A stretch of 64,000 bases of DNA from Halothermothrix sp. (GTDB lineage: Bacteria; Bacillota; Halanaerobiia; DY22613). Positions 48,475-64,000 of this stretch are shown here, piece by piece. The notes beneath the pieces are model-generated. The model saw nothing but the letters and a program-made list of their open reading frames with translations. It was not told the origin of the DNA and ran no database searches. The stretch covers positions 70,739 to 134,738 of the forward strand of contig JAENYK010000013.1 in NCBI GenBank assembly GCA_016841825.1. The letters run 5' to 3'. The position numbers and the translations under genes were made by a program. Position 1 is the stretch's first letter; each line of letters opens with the position of its first letter.

Positions 48475-48504
48475 AAAAAAGAGCCGCCTCAGTACGAGAC
48501 AGCT
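48475..48504 (-). terminator. Intrinsic terminator at the 3' end of the PKS/NRPS operon
   Basis: Minus-strand stem AGCTGTCTC/GAGGCGGCT with two G-U pairs and loop GTACT, followed by TTTTTT. It is 23 bases past the stop of the 147-aa gene and ends the biosynthetic transcript. Confidence 0.85.
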
Positions 48505-48526
48505 TCATAGCATCAATGACAGACAA

Positions 48527-48970
48527 TCATTCCTCCTCTAAGATTAACCCTTCATACATTTCAGGATATTCATCCTTGATAACCTGAATATAACTAGTAT
48601 CTCCATCATCACAGTCATATAGATATTTAATCCAGGCAAAAAATCCGCCTGTAATGTTAGATAAAGCAGTATCCAGCTCAGCTGAACATTCATCCAATTT
48701 GGACATATTCCCTGTAGTTTTAAACATGTCTATCTTTTTCAACACTTCATATGCCTTCCGCAAACTCTGTGCAATCACCTGGTGAATTTCTGGATAGATC
48801 TCAGGTGGGGTTAATTGTAAAAATTTAGTCATATAAAGATAAAAGTTTTGATCTTCTATTTCTAATGCAGCATCAATCGAATTCCGTAAAATCCCTGCTA
48901 TTGTTTTTAGATAAGTGTCTATATTCTCCCGGTTTCGAAGATATTCTGTTCTAGGTCTTAAATTAGACAT
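48527..48970 (-). CDS. Unknown 147-aa helical protein, end of the PKS/NRPS operon
   Basis: 147 aa, almost entirely predicted helical, acidic at the C-terminus (DEYPEMYEGLILEEE), with no signal peptide, membrane segment or cofactor motif; one cysteine lies in a KLDECSAELDTAL helix. I do not recognise it. AAAGAGGTAAAAGA precedes the ATG. It follows the 149-aa gene by 104 bases with no terminator between, and a terminator comes right after it, so it appears to be transcribed with the biosynthetic genes. Roles in release, self-protection or regulation are possible but unsupported. Confidence 0.65.
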   Translation of the reverse strand: MSNLRPRTEYLRNRENIDTYLKTIAGILRNSIDAALEIEDQNFYLYMTKFLQLTPPEIYPEIHQVIAQSLRKAYEVLKKIDMFKTTGNMSKLDECSAELDTALSNITGGFFAWIKYLYDCDDGDTSYIQVIKDEYPEMYEGLILEEE

Positions 48971-49074
48971 TCTTTTACCTCTTTTCTACACCAATTTTTG
49001 TTTAGTAAATTACTACTAACCTTCCCGCGAATAAAGATGGAAATTGACATAACAGACCAATTAGTTGACCTTTC

Positions 49075-49524
49075 CTAACTGGGAAATGAGATATTAGTAA
49101 AATTACCTATTAGAATGCTCTTTGACCTGACAGGCGCTAATATTTTCAACTCCTGGTCAGATGCACTGGAGATAATTATCTCTTCAAAGCTATCCAGAGG
49201 TTGATCTAGCTTACTTCTTCCAATCCAAAAATCATCGTGAGTATTGGTTAATTGAATCGCAAAATACTCTTCTCTATCTTTACATTTAATAAAAGCAAGG
49301 TACTGACTGGATTGAAAGAATTCCAGAGTTGGTAATCCAACAATCGTCACTACTAACTCATCTGTAAGAAAATTTAGATAGACTATACCTTCTGCACCAT
49401 ATTTTTTGATCTCCTCCAACAATAAACTTCCCCTGGCTGGCTTGATTCCTTCTGGGTTATTAGTAGAGGTTATAGTTTGTATAGAATCCGGATAAAAAGG
49501 TCGATATAAGCCTGGATAGTGCAT
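49075..49524 (-). CDS. Unknown 149-aa protein of the PKS/NRPS operon
   Basis: 149 aa, mixed alpha/beta and soluble. Segments include YRPFYPDSIQTITSTNNPEG, EGIVYLNFLTDELVVTIVGLPTLEFF and EEIIISSASDQELKILAPVRS. No catalytic motif or homology is apparent to me. The start has AAAGGAGATAGATT just upstream and lies 33 bases after the PKS stop, so it belongs to the same transcript. The ligand-sized beta-rich fold could suit a binding or accessory role, but this is a guess. Confidence 0.65.
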   Translation of the reverse strand: MHYPGLYRPFYPDSIQTITSTNNPEGIKPARGSLLLEEIKKYGAEGIVYLNFLTDELVVTIVGLPTLEFFQSSQYLAFIKCKDREEYFAIQLTNTHDDFWIGRSKLDQPLDSFEEIIISSASDQELKILAPVRSKSILIGNFTNISFPS

Positions 49525-49557
49525 AATCTATCTCCTTTCGCATAACAAATTTACCGC

Positions 49558-52500
49558 TTATTCTAAATCTTCATCTTTAAATAATAGTTCTACATCGTCG
49601 ACGCTAATCTCACCACTTGCCAATCGATCTAAAAGATCATCCATCTGGTCATCTTCTTCTACAATCTGCAGCTTGGGTTGATCCTGAATTCCACTCTTAC
49701 TATCGATATGAACAGCTAGTTCATGAACTGATGGATAAGTAAAAATATCTGAGATATCAAGGATTCCTGCAAACTCTTGTTCCAACTCTTTTGCCAGATG
49801 AGTTGCCAGAATCGAATCACCACCCAAATCGTAAAAGTTAGTGTAAACATTAATCTCAGCTAAGCCCAAAACAGTCCCCCAAATCCTGGCAACTAACATC
49901 TCTGTCTGTGTGTAATTGCCATCTCCTCCCCCTACTACTACTTCAGAGACTGGTCTTTTTCCTTCTTCTTTTGTAAATTTTTTTGCCTGATTGTTTTTGT
50001 GAATTCTTTTTTTATTTAAAATTATCTTTAAATCCTGAGCTAATTTAATAGGAAAACTCCCCATCAATGTACTCATCTCTTGATAATTCAACTCACCAAT
50101 GGTCACATTACTCAAATTACTATGTGTGTGAGTTGAGAAAATTTTGTCAAAGGCATTTATGGCATCATTAGTGGTTATTGTTTTAAAAATAATCCCGTCT
50201 TGATTAGCTCCATAATCTACAGCCATCCCAACCTCTTTCCAGGCTGGCCAATTAATGGTTAAAGCCTTTTGACCTAATTTACATCGATAACTGGCATAGG
50301 CATCTAAATAAGAATTGGCGGCTGTGTAATCACCCTGACCCGGACTACCCAGGAGTGAAGAGATAGATGAGAACATAATGAAAAAGTCCAGATCATCTTC
50401 CCTGGTTAGTCTATCTAAAACCCAGGTTCCGCTAATCTTTGGCGCCAGGACTTGATCGAAGGTAGTTTTTTCTTTTCTAATAATAAATCCATCTCCAGCG
50501 TTCCCTGCGCTGTGAATAAGACCATTAATTCGACCAAAATTGGATCTAAGTTCACCAACTATCTTAGTCATCTGATCATAATCACTCACATCTCCACTAT
50601 AGAGTACGACCCGAGAACCTAAAGATTCCATCTCTCTAATCATTTGTAGTTTGTGAGCCAGTTTGCCCTGACCACTCTGAATTATCTCATCCCACTGCTC
50701 TTTTTCCGGTAAAATAGAACGATTGAGCAAGGCTAAATTCACTTTGGCCTGTCTTGCTAAATATCTTCCGATCTCCAGTCCGATACCACCTGTTCCACCA
50801 GTAATTAAATATACACCTTCCTGGTGTAACTTCACCTTTTGTAAACTCATCTGAGTATCTTTTATCTGTCTAAATTCCTCTACATATCTTCTGTCTGCTC
50901 GATATGCTACCTGATATGTTTGACTCCTGACTGCCAATTCTTGCACAATACTGTCTATAGGGGTTGAATCATCAATGTCAATACACCTACAGATCAAGTG
51001 TGAGTATTCCCTGACAATAACTTTACCTAATCCAAATAAAGCAGCAGGTCCGGGATTGATACACTTCTCATCACCCATTACTGAATTAACATATTTCGAG
51101 ATCAGGACAATGTCCAGCTCCAAAAGATTGCTCTGCTTTAAAATAGCTTTAGTCAGATTAAACAGACTATCCACGCCTCTTTTCTGATTTTCTGATAATT
51201 GAGCCAGACTATCGGTTTGATATTCTCTGATTACAGTCTGCAGATGAATGATCTGACCTAACCCTTCAACACCAATTTCTGCAAACAGTTGTTCATAATC
51301 TGCCTGTTGATTGCCAACCGTAAACTCCTCAGACGAGATCATAGTACATCCAGTTCCATAATTTACAGTGATAACCTGCTGCCCTTTTTGTCGGAGAAGT
51401 TCAGCAAGTTTTCCACCTATTCCCTGCTCATCTGTAAAGATAAGTACTCTGGCGGCTGGATCTCTCTCAATTCCCGGTAGTTTATCAGTAACCCAACCGA
51501 TTTCAAAGAATGGATTACCTTTCTGAACAGCTTTCAGATCAGCCTGGTGAACTTTTTTGATGGTATAATCAAAAATCTGAGCAAATCCATGACCTTCTTC
51601 GTCCATTAAGGTAATATCAAAAGAGATTGTCTCTAATCTACTATCCGCGTTATCCTTTTTCCTAATATAGCTATAAAATCTCTCTGGCATATTCTTATAC
51701 AATACAAATCTCTTATAGGAGAATGGTAAGTATAAACCATCTCCAATCTGTTGACTCGCCAGATTGACTCCGATATCTAATAAAGCGGGATGGAGGCCAT
51801 ATTCTTTTATATCGGCTGCATATTGTGCTGGCAGTTGAATATCCACTAATAATTCCCCATCACCTAAATATACAGCCTGGACATTTTTCCATCTACCGCC
51901 GGTCTTAATCGCTCCAGTAACCATATTGGCATAATCCAGAATCTGAAGATCTGGGCATTTTTCTTTTAACATGACCAGATCATAATTAATCGACTCGGAT
52001 TCCAAACCAGGTTTGATCTTCCCTTCAGCATGTTTTACCCAATCAGCTGAGCTTTCTGTTCTACTTACAACCACATATTCCAGATATTCCTTGTCCTTTT
52101 TCACTATAGTATGGATTGTTTTGCTTTCCCCCTCATCTGCAATAAGTGGAGCAAAAAAAATTACATCAGAAAATTCAAGAACACTATCTGGATAATATTT
52201 ACTGCCTAAAGTTCTTCCCATCTCCAGATAGGTAGTTCCCGGAATGACATAATATTCGTTTACCAGATGTTCTTTCAGCACCCAATGGGTATCTACACTA
52301 AATTCAGTCAGATAAATGTCTTCATCATAAGATTCAGCTAAGCATAGATCGAACAATGGGTGATCTAATCCCCGGCTATAGTTAGCTAAGTTATTCTGAA
52401 AATCCAGGTTATGATAATCGATCCAACATCTCCTGCTTTCAAAAGGATATGTCGGAAGGCTGAGTTTATTGGGTTTTACCTGAAGATAGAGCTCCTCCCA

Positions 52501-54318
52501 GTTAATATCTGCTCCCCGAATATACATCTGGCATAGTTGTTCCAATTCAGTTAATTGAAGATCAGATTGCAGTCCTTTAATGATAAACTCAACCTGAGTA
52601 CTCAGATTTCTTCTTTCGCTTTCGGTCAATTCTTCTTTATCTTTAACCTCCTTGTTCTCTGCAATTATCCTATGTTCTCCATAAAAAAGACGACTGGTCT
52701 CCTCAGAATCTTTCCAGGATTGGAGTTGTGTAATTAGTTCCTGGCGAGTGTTAAAGATAACAGCCAGGCGATGATTGTAATGTCCCCGTCCTGTACTAAT
52801 TGTATAGCATAGATCGCGGCAGTTTATATCCATCGCTTCAGACAAGTAATCTACATACTGCCTGACCATTCTCTCTAATACCTCTCTGGTTTTAGCAGAA
52901 AGAGTTAGAACGTATGGCCCTGAAGTAATAGTATCCGACTCTCTGGCGGGTGCTTCTTCTAATACTAAATGACAGTTAGTTCCACTCAACCCAAAGGCAC
53001 TAACACCACACCTTCGTGGAGATTCTACCTGCCAACTCTGGTGCTGGTCTATTACATAAACTGGTGACTCAGCAAAATCTATCTTTTGATTGGGACTTTG
53101 ATAGTGAACTGTAGTTGGTAATTCACGATGTTTTAAAGCTAAAATAGCTTTAAGCAGACCGGCAATACCGGCAGCACTATCTAGATGACCGATATTTGTT
53201 TTTACAGAACTTACCCCACAGAACTGTTTTTTGTCTGTATACTTACGAAAAGCTTTGGTCATACCGTTAATCTCAATCGGATCACCCAGAACAGTTCCTG
53301 TCCCATGAGCTTCAATGTATGTGATGGTTTCAGGATCAATATTGGCATCCTTCCAGGCAGATTCGATCACCTGAGCCTGAGCCAATGAATTAGGAGCTGT
53401 TATCCCTACCGATGCTCCATCTTGATTAACAGCACTTCCCCTGATGACTGCATGGATATTGTCTCTATCTGCTATCGCCTTTTTTAAAGGTTTTAATAAT
53501 AATGCAATAACCCCTTCTCCTAAACCTGTACCATCAGAATCATTATCAAAAGTATGAGCCCTTCCGGTTGATGATCTGATACCAATCTCTGCCTGTCCAC
53601 TTCGGGATGGCAGGAGAATAATTTTTATCCCCCCTGCTATTGCCATCTCACATCTTCCTTTTTGTAGATCAGTGCAGGCTAAATGGACTGCTGTCAAAGC
53701 TGAAGAACAGGCAGTATCTACCACCATACTGGGGCCTTTTAAATCTAACAGATAAGAAATTCTACTGGCGATAATAGATTTAATGTTGCCAGACGTAGAT
53801 AGAGCAGCTAACTCAGGTGCTATTGTCTGAACAATGAATTTATAATCTATCTGACCATCATTGCTAAATCCCAGATAGACCCCGGTATCGGTTCCCATAA
53901 TCTTCTTTCCACCATATCCTGCGTCTTCGATAGCCCGCCAGGCAATTTGCAGAAATAGACGTTGGTTTGGATCCATTAAACTGGCTTCTTTAGGAGAAAT
54001 ATTAAAGAAAAGCGGATCAAATTTGTCAATCTCAGCTAAGTATGCCGCTTCACTCTCATCGTTGTTCTGTGCAATACCTAAATACTCCATAAAGGGTTGA
54101 ATATCAGCTTTTCTCTTTTCCGAATAAGGCCCTACACAGTCCAATCCCTGACGTAAAACCTCCCAGAATTCTGTCAAATCAGCACTCTGAGGTAACTGAC
54201 CAGCCATACCAATTATGGCAATATCCTTATTAGATATCTTCTCCAGGTGAATGGGTTGGCTAGAATTTATTAACAGGTCATCTAATTGAAGATTGTTTAG
54301 TTCTAGTGATTTCTTCAT
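49558..54318 (-). CDS. Type I polyketide synthase module KS-DH-KR-ACP without acyltransferase
   Basis: 1,586 aa from an ATG preceded by GGAGGTGGAGAAG; a start 15 bases upstream would include that site. KS (about 30-455) has Cys204 in DTACSSA, His338 in EAHGTGT and His378 in NIGHLDSAAG. Only a linker follows (about 465-640), ending in the post-AT motif LSLPTYPFESRRCW, with no acyltransferase. DH (about 655-930) has His684 in KEHLVNEYYVIPG and Asp848 in GLHPALLDIGVN. KR (about 1165-1375) has TGGTGGIG, FSSISS and Tyr1331 in GQGDYTAAN. ACP Ser1502 lies in DLGGDSIL. It should add and reduce one unit to a 2-enoyl stage. The malonyl unit must come from a trans-acting AT. No thioesterase ends the protein. 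Confidence 0.93.
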   Translation of the reverse strand: MKKSLELNNLQLDDLLINSSQPIHLEKISNKDIAIIGMAGQLPQSADLTEFWEVLRQGLDCVGPYSEKRKADIQPFMEYLGIAQNNDESEAAYLAEIDKFDPLFFNISPKEASLMDPNQRLFLQIAWRAIEDAGYGGKKIMGTDTGVYLGFSNDGQIDYKFIVQTIAPELAALSTSGNIKSIIASRISYLLDLKGPSMVVDTACSSALTAVHLACTDLQKGRCEMAIAGGIKIILLPSRSGQAEIGIRSSTGRAHTFDNDSDGTGLGEGVIALLLKPLKKAIADRDNIHAVIRGSAVNQDGASVGITAPNSLAQAQVIESAWKDANIDPETITYIEAHGTGTVLGDPIEINGMTKAFRKYTDKKQFCGVSSVKTNIGHLDSAAGIAGLLKAILALKHRELPTTVHYQSPNQKIDFAESPVYVIDQHQSWQVESPRRCGVSAFGLSGTNCHLVLEEAPARESDTITSGPYVLTLSAKTREVLERMVRQYVDYLSEAMDINCRDLCYTISTGRGHYNHRLAVIFNTRQELITQLQSWKDSEETSRLFYGEHRIIAENKEVKDKEELTESERRNLSTQVEFIIKGLQSDLQLTELEQLCQMYIRGADINWEELYLQVKPNKLSLPTYPFESRRCWIDYHNLDFQNNLANYSRGLDHPLFDLCLAESYDEDIYLTEFSVDTHWVLKEHLVNEYYVIPGTTYLEMGRTLGSKYYPDSVLEFSDVIFFAPLIADEGESKTIHTIVKKDKEYLEYVVVSRTESSADWVKHAEGKIKPGLESESINYDLVMLKEKCPDLQILDYANMVTGAIKTGGRWKNVQAVYLGDGELLVDIQLPAQYAADIKEYGLHPALLDIGVNLASQQIGDGLYLPFSYKRFVLYKNMPERFYSYIRKKDNADSRLETISFDITLMDEEGHGFAQIFDYTIKKVHQADLKAVQKGNPFFEIGWVTDKLPGIERDPAARVLIFTDEQGIGGKLAELLRQKGQQVITVNYGTGCTMISSEEFTVGNQQADYEQLFAEIGVEGLGQIIHLQTVIREYQTDSLAQLSENQKRGVDSLFNLTKAILKQSNLLELDIVLISKYVNSVMGDEKCINPGPAALFGLGKVIVREYSHLICRCIDIDDSTPIDSIVQELAVRSQTYQVAYRADRRYVEEFRQIKDTQMSLQKVKLHQEGVYLITGGTGGIGLEIGRYLARQAKVNLALLNRSILPEKEQWDEIIQSGQGKLAHKLQMIREMESLGSRVVLYSGDVSDYDQMTKIVGELRSNFGRINGLIHSAGNAGDGFIIRKEKTTFDQVLAPKISGTWVLDRLTREDDLDFFIMFSSISSLLGSPGQGDYTAANSYLDAYASYRCKLGQKALTINWPAWKEVGMAVDYGANQDGIIFKTITTNDAINAFDKIFSTHTHSNLSNVTIGELNYQEMSTLMGSFPIKLAQDLKIILNKKRIHKNNQAKKFTKEEGKRPVSEVVVGGGDGNYTQTEMLVARIWGTVLGLAEINVYTNFYDLGGDSILATHLAKELEQEFAGILDISDIFTYPSVHELAVHIDSKSGIQDQPKLQIVEEDDQMDDLLDRLASGEISVDDVELLFKDEDLE

Positions 54319-54333
54319 CTTCTCCACCTCCAT

Positions 54334-57300
54334 TTAACTATAAAATCTGTCTAGCAGACTTAGGATAAGTTTGATATACAGATTGGCTAACTCTTCAACT
54401 TTACCACTGTTAAGCTTTTCGGGATTATACCCATTGATCAAAGTATACCGTTCTTCATCTAAGATAATAGCCAGATACAGATCATCTTTAGAATCTATCC
54501 GACCTGGTCTGGATGTTCTGATAACCGGAATAATACTTGTTGAACCAGATTTCTGACGAAGATCCTGTTCAATAGGGTATCGGCCCATAAGTTCAGCCTG
54601 CCTATATTTTTGATTAACCAAGGTAAATAAATCAGTAAAATCAGTGATCTCCTGTAAATTAACCGGTAACGGGAATCGCTTATGAGTGTCATCTTTTCGC
54701 TCAACTTCAATAACCAACTCTTTTTTACCAGATAATTGAGATAAAAGATAGATATACATCGCTATAAGAATATCCTGGATCTCCACCTGACAGTCTACAG
54801 CCAGTTTAGCTAACTGTGTCAAAACATTATTTTGAATCTGAAATTGATAATCTAGATCTTCATGCAGATTATCAAGCTGATAGTATTCTCCCGGAAAAAC
54901 CAACAGTTCCCAATCTTTTCCCAGTTCCTGTGCCCAATAGTGTCTCTCAGCTGCTAACTTTTCTTCATCAATCTCTTCTATCTGTTCAGTCTGCCTCTCT
55001 AAATAACCAGTTAATTTAGCAATGGTTGGATATGCAAAAAGGTCGGCAACACTGATTTTTCCTGGGAAATATCTTTCCAACTGGTTGTATACCTGAACCA
55101 ATAGCATCGAGTTACCACCTAGCTCGAAGAAATTATCATATACCCCGACTAACTCAAGGTTCAGTCTTTCTTTCCATACTGAAGCAATAATCTGCTCAAC
55201 TTCTGATACAGGAGCTTGATATTCCTCAGTTAGTTGGGGACGCTTACTATCAAGCTCAGGGAGTTGACGATGATCAATCTTACCATTAGGTGTCAGTGGA
55301 AATTTTTCTAAATAAATATAGAATGAAGGAACCATATAGTCTGGTAAGATCTCTAACAGATGAGTCCGTAACCTGGATACTAAAATCTCTTGATCTGCCA
55401 GATAATACGCAACCAGATACTTAAAGCCATCGGGAGATTGTTGAGCAGTTACGAGACTTTCTTTTACTGCCGAATATCTGTCCAGGGCAGACTCTATCTC
55501 ACCTACTTCAATTCGATAACCTCTGATCTTAACCTGATGATCCCGCCGACCGAGAAATTCAATCTCACCATTGTCTAACCATCTGGCGAAATCACCTGTC
55601 TTGTACATCTTACTTCCAGTCTGATATGGATTGGAAATAAACCGTTCTGCTGTCAGTTCTGGACGTTGATAGTAACCTCTAGCCAATCCATCACCAGCTA
55701 TATATAAATCTCCAGTTACGTTAATGGGCACTGGTTGTAAATATTCATCCAAAATATAAATCTGAGTATTCGCTATCGGTTTACCGATAGTTACCTTTTC
55801 TGAGCTGGTTAATTCTTTCATCGTTGACCAGACTGTACTTTCAGTCGGACCATACATGTTAAATATTCTGGCCTGCGTGACCGCCTGCAGTCGTTTTAAT
55901 AGACTTAAGGGGAAGGATTCACCGCCAACGAAGATTACCTGTAATTTTTCCAGTACTTCTGTTGATCTAGTATCTTCTAACCATAACTGAAGTCTGGAAG
56001 GAGTGATCTGTACCATGTCTAGCTGCTGCTTAGAGATAAGTTTACTCATCAGTTCCGGATCTCGCTGTTCCGGTTCGGTAGTCAGAACCACCCTACTACC
56101 TCTAGTTAAAGGAAGTATTGTCTCCAGAACAAAAATGTCGAAGGAGATAGTAGTTAATGAGAGAATTTTATTCTCTGGTGTAAATGCAACTTTTTCAGTT
56201 ACACCAGTGATAAAGTTGTGAACTGTTCGATGTTCTAACATGGTTCCTTTCGGTTTCCCAGTTGAACCGGAAGTGTAGATCAAATAAATCAGATCTTCAG
56301 CTGAATTGATATTCTCCAGATTAGTTATCTCCCCTGTAAATGTTCTTTCACTATCGAGATAGATTTTCTCCCCAGTAAAACTATCGTTTTCTGTCAGCCA
56401 ACTCTGGGTCAAAAGTATCGTAGCTTCACTATCTGCTAACATATATTCGATTCGTTCTGCGGGATATTCAGGGTCTAAAGGCAGATATGCACCTCCTGCC
56501 TTAATAACTCCAAGTAGGGCAGCAATCATCTCAACCGAACGTTGAGCCAATATCCCCACCACTGACTCCCGAACCACACCTCTATTCCGTAAAAGTCTAG
56601 CCAATTGGTTAGCCTGTGTATTCAGCTGAGCATAGGTTACAGTTTTGTCGCCGACAACTAAAGCAATATTATCTGGTACCTGGAGTATTTGGTTTTCAAA
56701 AAGTTGGTTGATGGTTACAGTTTTCGGATAAGTAACTGCTGTATTGTTAAACTCGCGCAAAATACAGTCGCTTTCCTTCTGAGACAGCATCGGAATTTTT
56801 GCTAATTGACTGTCAGGTAGGGTTACGATTCCGTTTAATAGATTGATAAAATGTCCGATCATTTTCTGGACTGTATCTGTTTTAAATAGTTGAGTGCTGT
56901 ATTCAAAGGTACAACGTATTTCATCGCCTATTTCAAAGCAGGTCACCTGCAGGTCAAACTGAGAAGCTCGTGTCTCAAACTTGTACGGAATACATTGAAG
57001 CTCTTCACTGGCAATATTATCACTACGAAAATTCTGAAGTCTAAACATAGTATCAAATAAAGGATTACGACTCAAATCTCGCTGTAAATTCAGTTTTTCG
57101 ATCAAAATTTCAAAGGGATAATCTTGATTCTCATATGCAGCAAGAGTTCTGGTCTTTAAGTCTTCTAAGAATTCACGATAACTCTTATCCCCGCCAGGAT
57201 AATTTCGTAAAGCCAGTGTGTTAACGAACATACCGATCAAATTCTCTAAATCCCCATGGGTGCGTCCCGATATAGGAGTCCCAATAATAATGTCATCCTG

Positions 57301-60300
57301 CCCAGTATATCTGGCTAAAAGTAGGTTATATGCTGATAACAGAACCATAAATAAGGTAGAACTGGTCTTTTTAGCTAATTCATGCAATCTGGCAGATAAC
57401 TCCTGTCCAACTCCAATCGTCAGCTGATCTCCTGCATAGCTTTGTCTTTGTGGTCGCGGGAAATCAGAAGGTAAATTCAAGGCAGGAATAGGACGATTAG
57501 TACGTTCCTCCAGGAATTGACTTAACCAATACTCTTCTTGTTTTTTCATGCCTTCATCCTGTAAAAGTTGATTATGCCAGACTGCGTAATCCCGGTACTG
57601 AATATGAAGATCAGGGAGTCGTTCTCCGGCATATAATCTGACAAAATCTTTGATCAGAATATTTATTGAAAAACCGTCGGATATAATGTGGTGTTGATCG
57701 TAAACCAGATAGTTTCGCTCCCCGGTTTTAATCAGTCCCATTCTGAGTAATGGTGCTGTGTGTAGATCAAAAGGTCGGATAAACTCCTCAATAGTTCTCT
57801 TCACCTCAGATTCTGCTACCTCAAAGAATTGAATCTGAAATGTTAATTGGGAATACACTTTTTGGACAGGCTCTCCATCAATTAGTTCAATAGAGGTTCG
57901 TAAAGCTTCATGACGTTGAACCAGTTTCTGAATAGCCTGGTCAAATTTACTCTCCGAAAAATCTCCTTCAATCAATAGAGCACCCGGCAAATTATAGTTA
58001 ATCGAATTAGGGGACAATTGGTGTAAGATAAAGAGCCTCCGTTGAGCCGAGGAGACAGGGTAATATTCAGCATCAGGCTGTTTTGGGATAAGATTACCTT
58101 CCTGTACTTTATCTGTAATAGTATCTTCAATTGCTGTAAAAATCTGATCAATAGTCTTCTCCTCAAAAAATAATCCAAGGGGAATATCAATATTATATTC
58201 TCTTTTAATCTTTCCGACAAATTGTAAGATGCCAATGGAATCCAGATCCAGATCGGTAAAATGATTCTCCGGGGACAGTTCTTCTGTAACAGAAACCTCT
58301 CTTAACATCATTAATAAAGAATCCTTGACTCCCTGAGTTGTAACAGGATGTTCAACAACTTGCATCTCTTCAATCTGAGAAATTTGGGGATTAGTTTCCT
58401 TAAAATAGATAGCCAGAATTGATGGGTCTGGTCTCCCTAGATATCTCTTGCGATCATAGACATAGCCTGGCAAACTTAGCCGATATCTCTTCTGATCAGC
58501 ATAGATCTTTTCCCAATCCAATTCATGACCCAACTGCAAGTATCTAATTATGACGGAAAACAGAGAATTTTTAGCATTATTTAAAGAAAGTAAAATAGGT
58601 CCTGGTGAATCATCCTCCTGTAAACTAATCTCTGAAGCAATCTGAATAGGCAAAATAGCTTTACCTTTATTAGCATTAATAAATTGCTTATTCAATTTAC
58701 CAATAATAACCCGGGATAGATCTTTCTGCAGAACCTGATGCAATGCTCCAATTCCCTCTAATGTTGAAATAGAATAAAAGACTTTATCATAATTGACTCC
58801 TAAACTTCGGGCCATACCTGTCTCTTTCCATGAAGCCCAGTTGATAGTCAAAGTTCTCTTCCCTAACTTGTTGCGATATGTACTAAAAGAATCCAGAAAA
58901 CTATTGGCAGCCACATAGTTACCCTCTCCTGCTCCTCCAAGTACTGATGCAATTGAGGAAAATGAGACAAAGAAGTCCAGGTCATCATCTTGAGTCAGAT
59001 AATCTAAAATCCAGGTTCCATAAACTTTAGGTGCCAAAATTTGATCAAAAGTATCGGAGTCTCGGGTCGCGATAAACCCATCTCCGGCTGTACCAGCACT
59101 GTGAATAATTCCATTTATTTTCCCATATTTTTCTCTCAATTGATCAAAAATCTCAGCCATCTGCTCAATATCGCTGACATCGGCACTGTAATAGTTTACT
59201 TCGACATCATAGGATTCCAATTCCCGGAGACTACTCAATCTTTCACAAAGCTGCAGATCTTCACCTCTGGTGAGAATCTCCTCCCACTCTGTTTTATTCG
59301 GAAGAATTGAACGGTTAATTAAAGCCAGTTTTACTTTATTTTGTTGAGCCAGATATTTGGCTGCTTCCAATCCAATTCCTTTCGAACCACCAGTAATCAC
59401 ATACACACCCCGGTCTACGACAGCCATCTTCTTCTCCGGAAGTTTTGTTATCTCCAAAGGTTTGAACACATTCTCATAGCGCAGACCATTGCGATAAGCA
59501 ACGGTGTGAGTTGTAAGTCCAGTTGTGATTTCATTAAGAATCTGTTCAGCTGTAGTTGTTCGGTCAATATCGATGCAGTAACTACTGATTCCAGGATACT
59601 CCTGACCAACTGCCTGAGACAGACCAAACAGAGTGGACTGGGAAGGATTAATCCATTCTTCAGTACCAACTACTGAGTTGACATTATCTGCAACCAGAAT
59701 AATCTCAATCTTATTTTTGAGTTGCCGATCTACTAACCCTTTAGTTAAATAAAATAAACTATAGATACCCCTATCCTGATCCTGCTGCAGTTCAGCAAGA
59801 GAAGATGGGATTTTTTTATCCGTCAGAGTGGCCAGATGAACAATTCGAAGCAAATTAGTCTGGTTCACATTTTTCAATAATCTGCGATAACCTTCAGGAG
59901 TATTGGTGATCTGATAATGTTGACTATCCAGTTGTTTGTACTCTGGTCCAAATCGCACCTGGATCACTGGCTCTTCTATTCCCGCAACAATTCTACTGCT
60001 CAAATCTGTCTCACCGATAAAAATCAAGGTTGTACCCTCTTCATTGGCCTTCGAGTGGGCTTTTAAATCACTGTGGAACCAGTTGACCTCAAAAAACTGT
60101 TCTTTTTTTACTGCCATAACCTGGCTAAAAAGATTTTCCAATTTCTTGTCTGGCGAAAAGAGTAAGAAAAGATTAATTCCAGAATCGATGATTTTATCAA
60201 CTACGCCGTGCAAAGTAGCTTCCGTTAATACTTTAGATTTTTCTGAGTTATTTTGAATCTCCTCTAAAGCCTGTGCAAAACTAATTTTTTTCCTTGCCAG

Positions 60301-62130
60301 GTTTGCGATAATTAATCCCAGGCCAAACCCCATAACTCCTTTAGGTTTGATCCCGTATTTCTCTAATAATTGGATGGTAGCTGTGGCATGAAGAAGATAT
60401 TCAATTCTTTGATTTTGTCGTCTATCTTTTGCTGTAACACGTTTAGCCAATTGAGTATAGCATCTTTGATAATCTATAGATTTGGCAGCTAAATCCTGAT
60501 ATATTCTAAAATCTACATTATTCAAATCAGGGAAAATATAGATTGCTGTGGTTCGAACTTTTTTCTCCTGACGAGTTAATAAATAATTATCAACATGAGG
60601 TTCGTTTAGTAAGTATTTTCTAAGATTATACTGCAACTCCTCAATGTTATCTGCTATAGTCACAAATAATTTTCTCTGCTCACGTCGACCAGTATTCAAC
60701 GTATAGGCAAGATCATCAATAGATATGTCGGAATATTTCTCCAAATGGTCAGCTAATTTTGCAGCTATCCCTTTAAGAGATTTCTCTGTTCTGGCCTGAA
60801 GAAATACCAGATTCTTATTGAGGGCAAAGGTTTTTTGTACTATACGTTGAGGCGATTCCTGCAAGATTACGTGGGTATTGGTCCCGGTTAATCCAAGTGA
60901 GGTAACTCCGGCCCGTCTGACAGTATTTGACTTCCAGGCAGCCAATCGATCATTGACAAAAACTGACCCGGTGGTAAACTCGATTAAAGGATTAGGTTCC
61001 GCAAAATTCAATGACGGTGGAATCAGACCCTTATTCATGGCTAATACTACTTTGATCACACTGGCTACTCCAGCTGCACCAATCAGATGACCGATATTAG
61101 TCTTTAAAGAACCAATGGGTACTGATTGAGCAGGATATCCAAATTGATCAAAGATATCTTGTAATGCTGCCACTTCAATCGGATCTCCAATCCTGGTTCC
61201 TGTACCATGAGTCTCCACATAAGAGATGGTTTTAGGATCAATACCAGAGTTTTTCAAGGCTCGAGCAATAACTTCTGATTGAGCATGTTCACTGGGCGAC
61301 ATCATCCCATTAGACCAGCTTCCATCACTAAAAATAGCACTACCTTTGATCACACCCCAAATATGATCACCATCTTCTACAGCTCTGGTGAATCTCTTCA
61401 ACAGAAGAATTCCTCCACCTTCACCAAAAACAGTGCCATCAGCCTGATTATCAAAAGCTCTAACCTGTTCACTGGGCGACAAAATTGACACATTGGGAAG
61501 ATCGGCTTTGCTCATGGGCAGCATTAACATCTCTGTTCCCCCAACAATGGCCATCTCTAATTCTCCAGATTTAATACTCTGACAGGCAAAATGTAGGGCT
61601 ACTAAAGAAGATGAACAGGCTGTGCCGATAGTCAAGACTGGCCCGTGAAAATTGTAAGTATAAGCTACCCTTCCTCCATTTGAAGACGAGATACTGTTTA
61701 CTGTAGCCATTGGAGAATTATTCAATAGTCTTTCAGTATAATTATACCGATTCTCGGAGACAAAAACCCCAATATATTCATTAGCAAATTTCAACGGATC
61801 ATAACCCGCATCCAGAATAGCCTCTTCGACCAACTCCAATAATAATCTTTGCTGAGGATCAATATATTTGCACTCTTCCCGACTGATCGAAAAGAGTTCA
61901 GGCTCAAAAAGACCCAATTCTTCTAAATATCCACCTCTGGCAAAGTCCATTATTGGCAGCTTACCTACCATTGTAACAAGCTCTTCTTCTCTTGCTTTCG
62001 GAAATTGACGAATTGACTCTTTGCCTGATGCTAGATTTTGCCAAAACTGCTCCAGATCTGCGGCTTCAGGGAAACGTCCAGACATACCAATAATGGCTAT
62101 GTCATTGTCTTTGTATAGCTTACTGTCCAC
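54334..62130 (-). CDS. Hybrid polyketide synthase/nonribosomal peptide synthetase: KS-(degenerate AT)-KR-ACP-C-A-PCP-partial C
   Basis: 2,598 aa from a GTG preceded by AAAGGAGGGATTTCA. KS (about 5-425): Cys172 (GTACSSS), His308 (ETHGTGT), His348 (NIGHLIGAAG). A shrunken AT-like stretch follows (about 527-625) with GFGLG at 601-605 where GHSxG is expected, so no active-site serine. KR (about 905-1150): TGGSKGIG, Tyr1072 in GNYVAAN. ACP Ser1298 (DLDLDSIG). C domain (about 1355-1700): HHIISDG, His1481 intact. A domain (about 1805-2295): YTSGSTGKPKGT, NMYGPTE, YKTGD, NGKIDHRQLP. PCP Ser2341 (LGGNSM). The last 200 residues look like half a condensation domain. Product chemistry: one reduced polyketide unit, then one amino acid, probably glycine. 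15 bases before the next PKS gene. Confidence 0.93.
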   Translation of the reverse strand: MDSKLYKDNDIAIIGMSGRFPEAADLEQFWQNLASGKESIRQFPKAREEELVTMVGKLPIMDFARGGYLEELGLFEPELFSISREECKYIDPQQRLLLELVEEAILDAGYDPLKFANEYIGVFVSENRYNYTERLLNNSPMATVNSISSSNGGRVAYTYNFHGPVLTIGTACSSSLVALHFACQSIKSGELEMAIVGGTEMLMLPMSKADLPNVSILSPSEQVRAFDNQADGTVFGEGGGILLLKRFTRAVEDGDHIWGVIKGSAIFSDGSWSNGMMSPSEHAQSEVIARALKNSGIDPKTISYVETHGTGTRIGDPIEVAALQDIFDQFGYPAQSVPIGSLKTNIGHLIGAAGVASVIKVVLAMNKGLIPPSLNFAEPNPLIEFTTGSVFVNDRLAAWKSNTVRRAGVTSLGLTGTNTHVILQESPQRIVQKTFALNKNLVFLQARTEKSLKGIAAKLADHLEKYSDISIDDLAYTLNTGRREQRKLFVTIADNIEELQYNLRKYLLNEPHVDNYLLTRQEKKVRTTAIYIFPDLNNVDFRIYQDLAAKSIDYQRCYTQLAKRVTAKDRRQNQRIEYLLHATATIQLLEKYGIKPKGVMGFGLGLIIANLARKKISFAQALEEIQNNSEKSKVLTEATLHGVVDKIIDSGINLFLLFSPDKKLENLFSQVMAVKKEQFFEVNWFHSDLKAHSKANEEGTTLIFIGETDLSSRIVAGIEEPVIQVRFGPEYKQLDSQHYQITNTPEGYRRLLKNVNQTNLLRIVHLATLTDKKIPSSLAELQQDQDRGIYSLFYLTKGLVDRQLKNKIEIILVADNVNSVVGTEEWINPSQSTLFGLSQAVGQEYPGISSYCIDIDRTTTAEQILNEITTGLTTHTVAYRNGLRYENVFKPLEITKLPEKKMAVVDRGVYVITGGSKGIGLEAAKYLAQQNKVKLALINRSILPNKTEWEEILTRGEDLQLCERLSSLRELESYDVEVNYYSADVSDIEQMAEIFDQLREKYGKINGIIHSAGTAGDGFIATRDSDTFDQILAPKVYGTWILDYLTQDDDLDFFVSFSSIASVLGGAGEGNYVAANSFLDSFSTYRNKLGKRTLTINWASWKETGMARSLGVNYDKVFYSISTLEGIGALHQVLQKDLSRVIIGKLNKQFINANKGKAILPIQIASEISLQEDDSPGPILLSLNNAKNSLFSVIIRYLQLGHELDWEKIYADQKRYRLSLPGYVYDRKRYLGRPDPSILAIYFKETNPQISQIEEMQVVEHPVTTQGVKDSLLMMLREVSVTEELSPENHFTDLDLDSIGILQFVGKIKREYNIDIPLGLFFEEKTIDQIFTAIEDTITDKVQEGNLIPKQPDAEYYPVSSAQRRLFILHQLSPNSINYNLPGALLIEGDFSESKFDQAIQKLVQRHEALRTSIELIDGEPVQKVYSQLTFQIQFFEVAESEVKRTIEEFIRPFDLHTAPLLRMGLIKTGERNYLVYDQHHIISDGFSINILIKDFVRLYAGERLPDLHIQYRDYAVWHNQLLQDEGMKKQEEYWLSQFLEERTNRPIPALNLPSDFPRPQRQSYAGDQLTIGVGQELSARLHELAKKTSSTLFMVLLSAYNLLLARYTGQDDIIIGTPISGRTHGDLENLIGMFVNTLALRNYPGGDKSYREFLEDLKTRTLAAYENQDYPFEILIEKLNLQRDLSRNPLFDTMFRLQNFRSDNIASEELQCIPYKFETRASQFDLQVTCFEIGDEIRCTFEYSTQLFKTDTVQKMIGHFINLLNGIVTLPDSQLAKIPMLSQKESDCILREFNNTAVTYPKTVTINQLFENQILQVPDNIALVVGDKTVTYAQLNTQANQLARLLRNRGVVRESVVGILAQRSVEMIAALLGVIKAGGAYLPLDPEYPAERIEYMLADSEATILLTQSWLTENDSFTGEKIYLDSERTFTGEITNLENINSAEDLIYLIYTSGSTGKPKGTMLEHRTVHNFITGVTEKVAFTPENKILSLTTISFDIFVLETILPLTRGSRVVLTTEPEQRDPELMSKLISKQQLDMVQITPSRLQLWLEDTRSTEVLEKLQVIFVGGESFPLSLLKRLQAVTQARIFNMYGPTESTVWSTMKELTSSEKVTIGKPIANTQIYILDEYLQPVPINVTGDLYIAGDGLARGYYQRPELTAERFISNPYQTGSKMYKTGDFARWLDNGEIEFLGRRDHQVKIRGYRIEVGEIESALDRYSAVKESLVTAQQSPDGFKYLVAYYLADQEILVSRLRTHLLEILPDYMVPSFYIYLEKFPLTPNGKIDHRQLPELDSKRPQLTEEYQAPVSEVEQIIASVWKERLNLELVGVYDNFFELGGNSMLLVQVYNQLERYFPGKISVADLFAYPTIAKLTGYLERQTEQIEEIDEEKLAAERHYWAQELGKDWELLVFPGEYYQLDNLHEDLDYQFQIQNNVLTQLAKLAVDCQVEIQDILIAMYIYLLSQLSGKKELVIEVERKDDTHKRFPLPVNLQEITDFTDLFTLVNQKYRQAELMGRYPIEQDLRQKSGSTSIIPVIRTSRPGRIDSKDDLYLAIILDEERYTLINGYNPEKLNSGKVEELANLYIKLILSLLDRFYS

Positions 62131-62365
62131 TGAAATCCCTCCTTTATAATAATTGCCCGGATGTAGATGATAACTTTTGCGTAAGTTAACATTTTTTTGT
62201 GAAAAGTCTATCTATTCTAAGATTACTATATTTTTTCCCAAATTTCCTGCCTATTTTTGGTCTAAGTAAAAGTTTTTTAAATATTTAAGAGAATTGACCC
62301 CCTGATAACTGAAAAATAGTATCTAACCTGAATTATTAGGTAATAATTTAGATAATTTATCCAAA

Positions 62366-64000
62366 TTATATTTCAAATATTTGAATATCAGTATCTTCGA
62401 TTATAAGATCATCTTCTTCAGGTCTATCAATTAGGGATGCCATCAATTCAATAGTATTATAGTTAAAAAGGTCGAGAATTTTAAAATTAGTAGCAAACTC
62501 TTCGTTAACTAGCCTGGTTAATTCCATGATTGAAAGTGAATTACCACCCAGGTCAAAGAAAGAATCCCTCGTTCCAATTCCTGCAGCATCAAGTTTTAAG
62601 ATCCTGGCCCACAATTCTGCCAAACGTTTTTCTATATCTCTTTCTGGAGCCTGATACTCCACCCCTGTCTTAATTGTAGCGGTTGGTACAGGTAAAGCTT
62701 TGCGGTCTATTTTGTTAGTAGAAGTAAGCGGCATCTTTTCCAAAGTGATAAAATGTACTGGAATCATATAGTCTGGTAATACTTGTTGTAATGCTGATCT
62801 TAACTCATTAATTATCACTTCAGTATCCGTGACCAGATATGCACAAAGATACCTGGTATTATCCCCATAATCTCTGGCAGTAACTACTACTTCTCTGATT
62901 CCAGGGTATGTTAATATTTTACTCTCTATCTCGCCTAACTCTACTCGAAAACCACGAATCTTAACCTGAAAATCCTTTCTACCCATAAATTCAACAGTTC
63001 CATCTAATAGTCGCCTTCCCAGATCCCCTGTCAGATACACTCTACCCAGGCTTCTATCTTCCATAAATACCTGTTTTGTCTTTTCAGGGTTTTTCCAATA
63101 ACCTGGAGCAACATAGTCGCTGGCGACCACAATCTCTCCGATTCCAAACATCGGAACTTCCACACCAGATTGATCAATTACTAATAACTCGGTATCATCT
63201 ACTGGCTGACCAAGGGTAATCTTCTCGAATGAATCATCACTGTGAAAATACTGGGCTGAATTGAAGGAAGTCTCTGATTGTCCATAGAGATTAACCAATA
63301 CCGCGTTTGGAAATGACCTTCGAAAGTCCTGAATATCGTGTTCAATCACCTGTTCCCCCCCCAGAACAATCCACCTTAAATCCGGGAAGTATTTGACCTC
63401 TTTCAGAGTTCTAACAAAAAACCTGAAAACCGTAGGGACCGAATGCCAGACCGTTATCTTCTCGTCAATCATCCATTGGGCCAGATCTGCAATATCTATC
63501 TGATCTCTGACATTTACAGGATATAGAGTTGCTCCTGTTACGAAACCTGTATAAATATCCATTACTGCTGCATCATGAGTAAAAGTTGAAAATAGGGTTA
63601 ATCTATCATCCAATCCGATCTGCAGATATTTCTCATAGTTGCGGACAAAATGCAGAATATTGCGCTGGGTCTGCACCACACCCTTAGGTCTTCCGGTAGA
63701 ACCTGAAGTGTAGAGAATATATGCAGGTTTATCTTCACAGATCAGTCTCTGCGGATTCTGCTGAGAGACTTCTAAAGCTATGGTATCAAGATTAATAAAC
63801 ATGAGTGATAAACTCAGTTCTTCCATTATTCGGGTAATCAGTTTTTGATTAAAATTATTGCTGACAATTATTCCGATTTCGGCATCTACCAGAATATGGT
63901 GTAGTCTGTCCCTGGGATATGTCGGTTCCAATGGAACATAAGTCATACCTGCTTTAATTGCTCCGAGCACTCCAATAATCATGTCTGCACCCTGCTCAAA
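62366..64000 (-). CDS. Nonribosomal peptide synthetase, adenylation-PCP, N-terminus beyond window
   Basis: At least 544 aa; the frame stays open to the right edge, where FEQGAD precedes MIIGVLGAIKAGMTYVPLEPTYPRDRL, so the real start lies outside. Adenylation motifs: YILYTSGSTGRPKGVV, NLYGQSETS, LTGDLGRRLLDGTVEFMGRKDFQVKIRGFRVELGEIE and STNKIDRKALP with the catalytic lysine. The C-terminal carrier domain has LGGNSLSIMEL and the protein ends soon after (EDTDIQIFEI). By alignment to GrsA I read the pocket as D-A-M-H-V-G-L-F-N-K, which I cannot match to a substrate. As the first known gene in the transcript it may load the starter unit. A 235-base gap separates it from the next gene. Confidence 0.92.
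   Translation of the reverse strand, partial: FEQGADMIIGVLGAIKAGMTYVPLEPTYPRDRLHHILVDAEIGIIVSNNFNQKLITRIMEELSLSLMFINLDTIALEVSQQNPQRLICEDKPAYILYTSGSTGRPKGVVQTQRNILHFVRNYEKYLQIGLDDRLTLFSTFTHDAAVMDIYTGFVTGATLYPVNVRDQIDIADLAQWMIDEKITVWHSVPTVFRFFVRTLKEVKYFPDLRWIVLGGEQVIEHDIQDFRRSFPNAVLVNLYGQSETSFNSAQYFHSDDSFEKITLGQPVDDTELLVIDQSGVEVPMFGIGEIVVASDYVAPGYWKNPEKTKQVFMEDRSLGRVYLTGDLGRRLLDGTVEFMGRKDFQVKIRGFRVELGEIESKILTYPGIREVVVTARDYGDNTRYLCAYLVTDTEVIINELRSALQQVLPDYMIPVHFITLEKMPLTSTNKIDRKALPVPTATIKTGVEYQAPERDIEKRLAELWARILKLDAAGIGTRDSFFDLGGNSLSIMELTRLVNEEFATNFKILDLFNYNTIELMASLIDRPEEDDLIIEDTDIQIFEI

Follow-up and report, generated by a model that had tools for sequence, protein, structure and literature searches.

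The window analysed here is a stretch of 64,000 nucleotides (C30:70739-134738) from a draft genome of 5.08 Mb in 43 contigs, with a contamination estimate of 4.7%; the rest of contig C30 to the right of the window was also analysed. At the right end of the window lies a minus-strand gene cluster that extends rightward beyond the window edge. Annotation with Pfam and our own HMMs gives the operon order NRPS (four C-A-PCP modules), ORF2, ORF3, two small genes and a hairpin, placing NRPS and PKS modules together in one operon as in NRPS-PKS hybrids. The features, in window coordinates, are as follows.

62366-64000, minus: 3′ end of the NRPS gene, last A-PCP of its four C-A-PCP modules
54334-62130, minus: ORF2, 2,598 aa, KS-AT°-KR-post-AT linker-ACP-C-A(Gly-like)-PCP-half C, where AT° is a degenerate acyltransferase
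60850-62106, minus: KS of ORF2, catalytic Cys-His-His motifs intact
60061-60618, minus: AT°, pieces of the large subdomain only
60316-60330, minus: GFGLG, where an active AT has the nucleophile motif GHSxG
58813-60033, minus: KR of ORF2 (structural and catalytic halves), between AT° and the post-AT linker
58426-58590, minus: post-AT linker (LSLPGYVYDRKRYLG), shifted to a position behind the KR
58129-58284, minus: ACP of the ORF2 PKS module
56773-58065, minus: condensation domain of ORF2, HHIISDG
55258-56706, minus: adenylation domain of ORF2, predicted Gly-type code
55000-55188, minus: PCP of ORF2
54337-54990, minus: half condensation domain at the ORF2 C terminus, without HHxxxDG
49558-54333, minus: ORF3, 1,591 aa, KS-DH-KR-ACP, an ordinary trans-AT module
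49075-49524, minus: small gene 1, 149 aa, without a family match
48527-48970, minus: small gene 2, 147 aa, without a family match
48482-48504, minus: terminator-like hairpin with a T run, ending the operon after small gene 2

The whole NRPS gene, cut by the window edge, spans C30:133104-145925 and encodes 4,273 aa free of internal stops. The original prediction had read the gene order as A-PCP, KS-KR-ACP-C-A-PCP, KS-DH-KR-ACP and two small genes; all of this stands except the first item, which is the 3′ end of the four-module NRPS. Every domain that it named in ORF2 is likewise present, and to these we add the degenerate AT in the gap between KS and KR and the C-terminal half C domain. The cluster sits between a serA-type gene and leuS/tldD-type genes (named from sequence), and its G+C matches the remainder of the window. 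Because of these flanks and the matching G+C, contamination is an unlikely source of the cluster, which is native to the genome. The organism had been taken for an anaerobe, and the seven [FeFe]-hydrogenase matches in its genome, together with the lack of any match in a genome-wide search for COX1, fit that description. Small gene 1 (49075-49524) yielded a poor, low-confidence all-beta structure model, and its product is weakly similar to LysM proteins of two other Bacillota genomes, in their C-terminal domain. Upstream of the NRPS, at C30:146373-148793, an opposite-strand orphan gene of 204 aa is followed by genes for a methyltransferase and an alpha/beta hydrolase.

NRPS, ORF2 and ORF3 are all open frames over more than 25 kb, and the motifs of the KS, KR and C domains are preserved throughout the cluster. 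The DH of ORF3 keeps its His and Asp, but carries Glu at the Gly position of HxxxGxxxxP. For the C-A-PCP of ORF2, the closest solved structure is linear gramicidin synthase A. Judged by known specificity codes applied to the stretch from core A3 to core A5, the A domains presumably select Val-like substrates in three cases and Gly in ORF2, with one domain left without an assigned type; these assignments are predictions from sequence. The first C domain of the NRPS most resembles the chain-accepting C domains of McyB, TycB and SrfA-C. Because this domain is acceptor-like and the operon holds no upstream partner protein to act as its donor, the assembly line may be incomplete or may begin with a protein encoded elsewhere. 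Partial C domains recur at the C terminus of several NRPS proteins in this genome (window:54337-54990, C14:11549, C14:92215 and C14:124036), some just before KS proteins, and are possibly docking elements.

In the region between the KS and KR of ORF2, Pfam returned no match at a relaxed cut-off. An HMM built from ten ATs of the genome matches residues ~505-690 of ORF2 in two pieces (32.6 bits), and the best Foldseek matches of an AF2 model of the region are AT and KS-AT domains; the mean pLDDT of this model is 53, and it was built from an AT alignment whose other rows are intact ATs, which limits the weight of the Foldseek result. Alignment and motif inspection show that both catalytic residues, Ser and His, are missing, as is the small subdomain. 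Because all three are gone, AT° is almost certainly non-catalytic and would not transfer malonyl groups. In the open-access literature we found no description matching a truncated, vestigial or inactive AT domain of this kind.

ORF2 is also unusual in the position of its KR. The post-AT linker precedes the KR in 48 of the 48 other KR modules in which the linker motif was found, a set that includes some modules from near-identical strains, and ORF2 alone is reversed; 14 further modules lacked a motif match and are uninformative. A sister module on another contig of the same genome, C2:340044, aligns with ORF2 through KS, AT° and post-AT linker (42% identity over 55 aa in the linker) and lacks a KR in its frame. 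The KR of ORF2 itself resembles trans-AT-type KRs. The simplest reading of these alignments is that a KR cassette was inserted ahead of the post-AT linker. A match from an Alkalihalophilus plasmid, used as a control, has the ordinary module order and no AT°.

Neither PKS module of the operon has an active built-in AT, ORF3 being AT-less and ORF2 carrying the dead AT°; this is the condition of trans-AT lines and not that of cis-AT lines, which have an intact AT in each module. The predicted absence of an active AT, a TE and a PPTase was borne out along the whole of contig C30, where a search for the three gave no match apart from the dead AT°. C30 thus lacks the discrete AT that usually, if not universally, lies in or near a trans-AT cluster. 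The rightward search that had been proposed supplied none of the three on this contig, and they were found on other contigs instead: discrete ATs on C14, C22 and C41, FabD on C14, one PPTase of Sfp size and type besides an AcpS, and twelve thioesterase matches, stand-alone TEs included. Built-in ATs lie on C21, C43 and C41. We also looked for a discrete AT on C2, the contig of two sister AT° modules, and found none. Because no AT lies in the C30 cluster and none was found on C2, the case for supply in trans rests on analogy, and our best reading is that malonate would be fed to the line by an enzyme encoded elsewhere.

The C30 line is nonetheless likely, from its domain content and KS placement, to be a trans-AT-type NRPS-PKS hybrid, as had been suspected. 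The closest solved structure to ORF3 is 7zma (899 bits, KS-DH aligned over its full length), a 'putative polyketide synthase' that we take to be a trans-AT PKS. Trans-AT PKSs of Bacillota include this protein and bacillaene PksJ and PksL; the KS of ORF3 falls, alongside KSs from other Bacillota, in a broad AT-less clade (95). ORF2 has an AT core between its KS and post-AT linker, and we know of no such core in modules of the 7zma, PksJ and PksL type. With the cis-AT KS-AT cores of DEBS and CurL, ORF2 shares a recognizable KS, KS-AT linker, AT core and post-AT linker, but its catalytic Ser, His and small subdomain are gone and its KR stands ahead of the post-AT linker. In KS trees, ORF2, C2:340044 and C2:121492 form a clade (96) of three AT° modules that is sister to the remainder of the AT-less group (support 90), and the whole group, ORF2 and ORF3 included, is sister to cis-AT hybrid KSs. 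These trees did not support placing the AT-less modules of this genome with the AT-less KSs of Pseudomonas and other distantly related bacteria.

AT° is found repeatedly. This genome has five such domains (ORF2, C2:121492, C2:340044, C41:209072 and C41:224062), and three other Bacillota genomes (G448, G451 and G361) have at least five AT° modules. Among eleven AT° domains compared, of which ten aligned clearly and one (L164) weakly, nine carry Gly where the Ser would be. The small subdomain, 94-104 residues long in intact ATs, is reduced to 9-40 residues in most AT°; the count obtained for ORF2 is an alignment artefact in which KR residues are placed there, and direct alignment shows a gap. 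Discrete ATs accompany some of these modules: one directly follows the AT° module of G451:C667, the C41 cluster combines two AT° modules with one discrete AT, and G448:C105 has an AT-like ORF ~15 kb from its AT°. Intact, dead and absent ATs occur together in related modules of this genome. Pfam scores one AT° (C41:212711) as an AT above its cut-off, so modules of this kind can be annotated as cis-AT. Outside the three-member clade of ORF2, AT° modules are dispersed among cis-AT modules in the KS tree, which rejects a single AT° clade (AU p 8e-49). The AT-domain tree, itself weak through its long AT° branches, groups the AT° loosely, and once trait columns are taken out it remains compatible with a single origin (AU p 0.45). 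Either ATs were lost repeatedly by the same route, or AT° moved between modules, as far as these trees indicate.

We consider it quite probable that the operon encodes a trans-AT-type NRPS-PKS line supplied from elsewhere in the genome, in which AT° is a non-catalytic relic that may still have a structural or docking role. Silent decay of the whole line, with AT and TE lost, no upstream partner and AT° as rot, would account for an operon without TE, AT or loading module, for a first C domain that looks like a chain acceptor and for the great divergence of AT° seen in its branch lengths. Such decay is unlikely, however, given three megasynthase ORFs that stay open with their KS, KR and C motifs intact, an intact ORF3 and an AT° form repeated in several genomes. 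Still more improbable, to the point of being nearly negligible, is an assembly or gene-calling artefact behind the odd order of ORF2: the genome is a draft with some estimated contamination, but ORF2 is a single uninterrupted frame and C2:340044 matches it across KS, AT° and post-AT linker.

What AT° represents is a separate matter. Built-in ATs may have decayed repeatedly and independently once discrete ATs were present, leaving AT° without function, and we give this slightly less than an even chance. The KS tree favours it, requiring at least five changes of AT° state with AT° dispersed among intact cis-AT modules, as does the coexistence of intact, dead and absent ATs in one genome; free decay would nevertheless not be expected to produce one excision and one replacement residue, Gly, time after time. 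This recurrence, the retention of a three-Gly elbow beside a variable residue, the discrete ATs next to AT° in G451 and the C41 cluster, and an AT-domain tree compatible with one AT° origin where the KS tree rejects one clade all point towards a conserved platform that docks a trans-acting AT, intermediate between the cis-AT and trans-AT architectures. Docking of this kind is conceivable but falls some way short of even probability, as no local AT was found on C30 or C2, the AT° tree suffers from long branches and the same genome has AT-less modules without any AT°. We tentatively propose, with more doubt than confidence, that AT° is a functional, non-catalytic PKS domain of anaerobic Bacillota that has spread between modules and scaffolds or docks discrete ATs, with its small subdomain excised and Gly at the nucleophile position. 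If so, AT° modules would be a living intermediate between cis-AT and trans-AT lines, with ORF2 a case in which a KR was inserted before the linker. For the origin of trans-AT lines, the route from cis to trans is directly testable here, because one genome holds intact, dead and absent ATs and the dead form is common to several anaerobes. The KR-then-linker order would be of interest for engineering.

On the preferred reading of a trans-AT-type line fed from elsewhere, the four NRPS modules would add three Val-like residues and one residue without an assignment. The first PKS module would extend the chain with malonate and reduce the keto group to give a statine-like unit, after which the NRPS module of ORF2 would add Gly. 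The last module would extend, reduce and dehydrate, and its ACP would then carry an alpha,beta-unsaturated gamma-amino acid, a predicted Michael acceptor as in barnesin. By analogy, malonate would be loaded in trans by one of the discrete ATs of the genome or by FabD, and the product may be released by an enzyme encoded elsewhere. Lying between the KS and the remaining domains of its module, AT° would be a derived AT core, in the simplest view left over from an ancestral built-in AT and perhaps still serving as a structural or docking piece.

The nearest analogue of the C30 line is barnesin. The brn cluster of Sulfurospirillum barnesii, which makes barnesin A, is an AT-less NRPS-PKS of an anaerobe for which FabD is indicated as the trans-AT; its NRPS is followed by KS, DH, KR and ACP to give a vinylogous amino acid, with the AT encoded outside the cluster (PMC13096860). 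The C30 line shares the anaerobic host, the order of NRPS then AT-less PKS and the lack of an AT in the cluster, but brn encodes a TE and a PPTase and has a single PKS module (KS-DH-KR-ACP-TE), whereas C30 lacks TE and PPTase and has two PKS modules, one with a dead AT (PMC13096860). Clusters of this type had been thought rare in fermentative, low-G+C anaerobes, a view not supported in that form, given the trans-AT NRPS/PKS hybrids published from clostridia (PMC3250452) and the 16-32 KS matches in each of this genome and several anaerobic MAGs. The clostridial trans-AT and mixed cis/trans-AT hybrids likewise lack built-in ATs and come from strict anaerobes, with cis and trans modules mixed in one genome as here; they belong to a different cluster, and the accessible part of that report describes no truncated dead ATs like that of ORF2 (PMC3250452). 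A close relative of the full cluster was not found among 31 named loci, 399 genomes of the phylum or plasmids, and a KS match to ORF2 was absent from all 60 relatives searched, 58 of which belong to its own class or family.

This genome has about ten NRPS/PKS regions and 28 KS matches, and its class-level relatives mostly have no match. Two MAGs, G448 (uncultured Clostridia N1_Bin_25_1) and G451 (Bacillota bin150), have 32 and 16 KS matches, respectively, and each combines cis, AT-less and AT° modules. At C21:162802-168111 (L043:7803-13112, minus strand), an NRPS A domain is apparently interrupted twice, by Radical_SAM and B12-binding domains that form a cobalamin radical-SAM unit and by a second insert of ~335 aa without a Pfam match. 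C21:155412-162899 (L043:413-7900, minus strand) encodes a KS-AT-ACP-C-A-PCP protein whose A domain is interrupted by an oxidase-like domain of the nitroreductase family.
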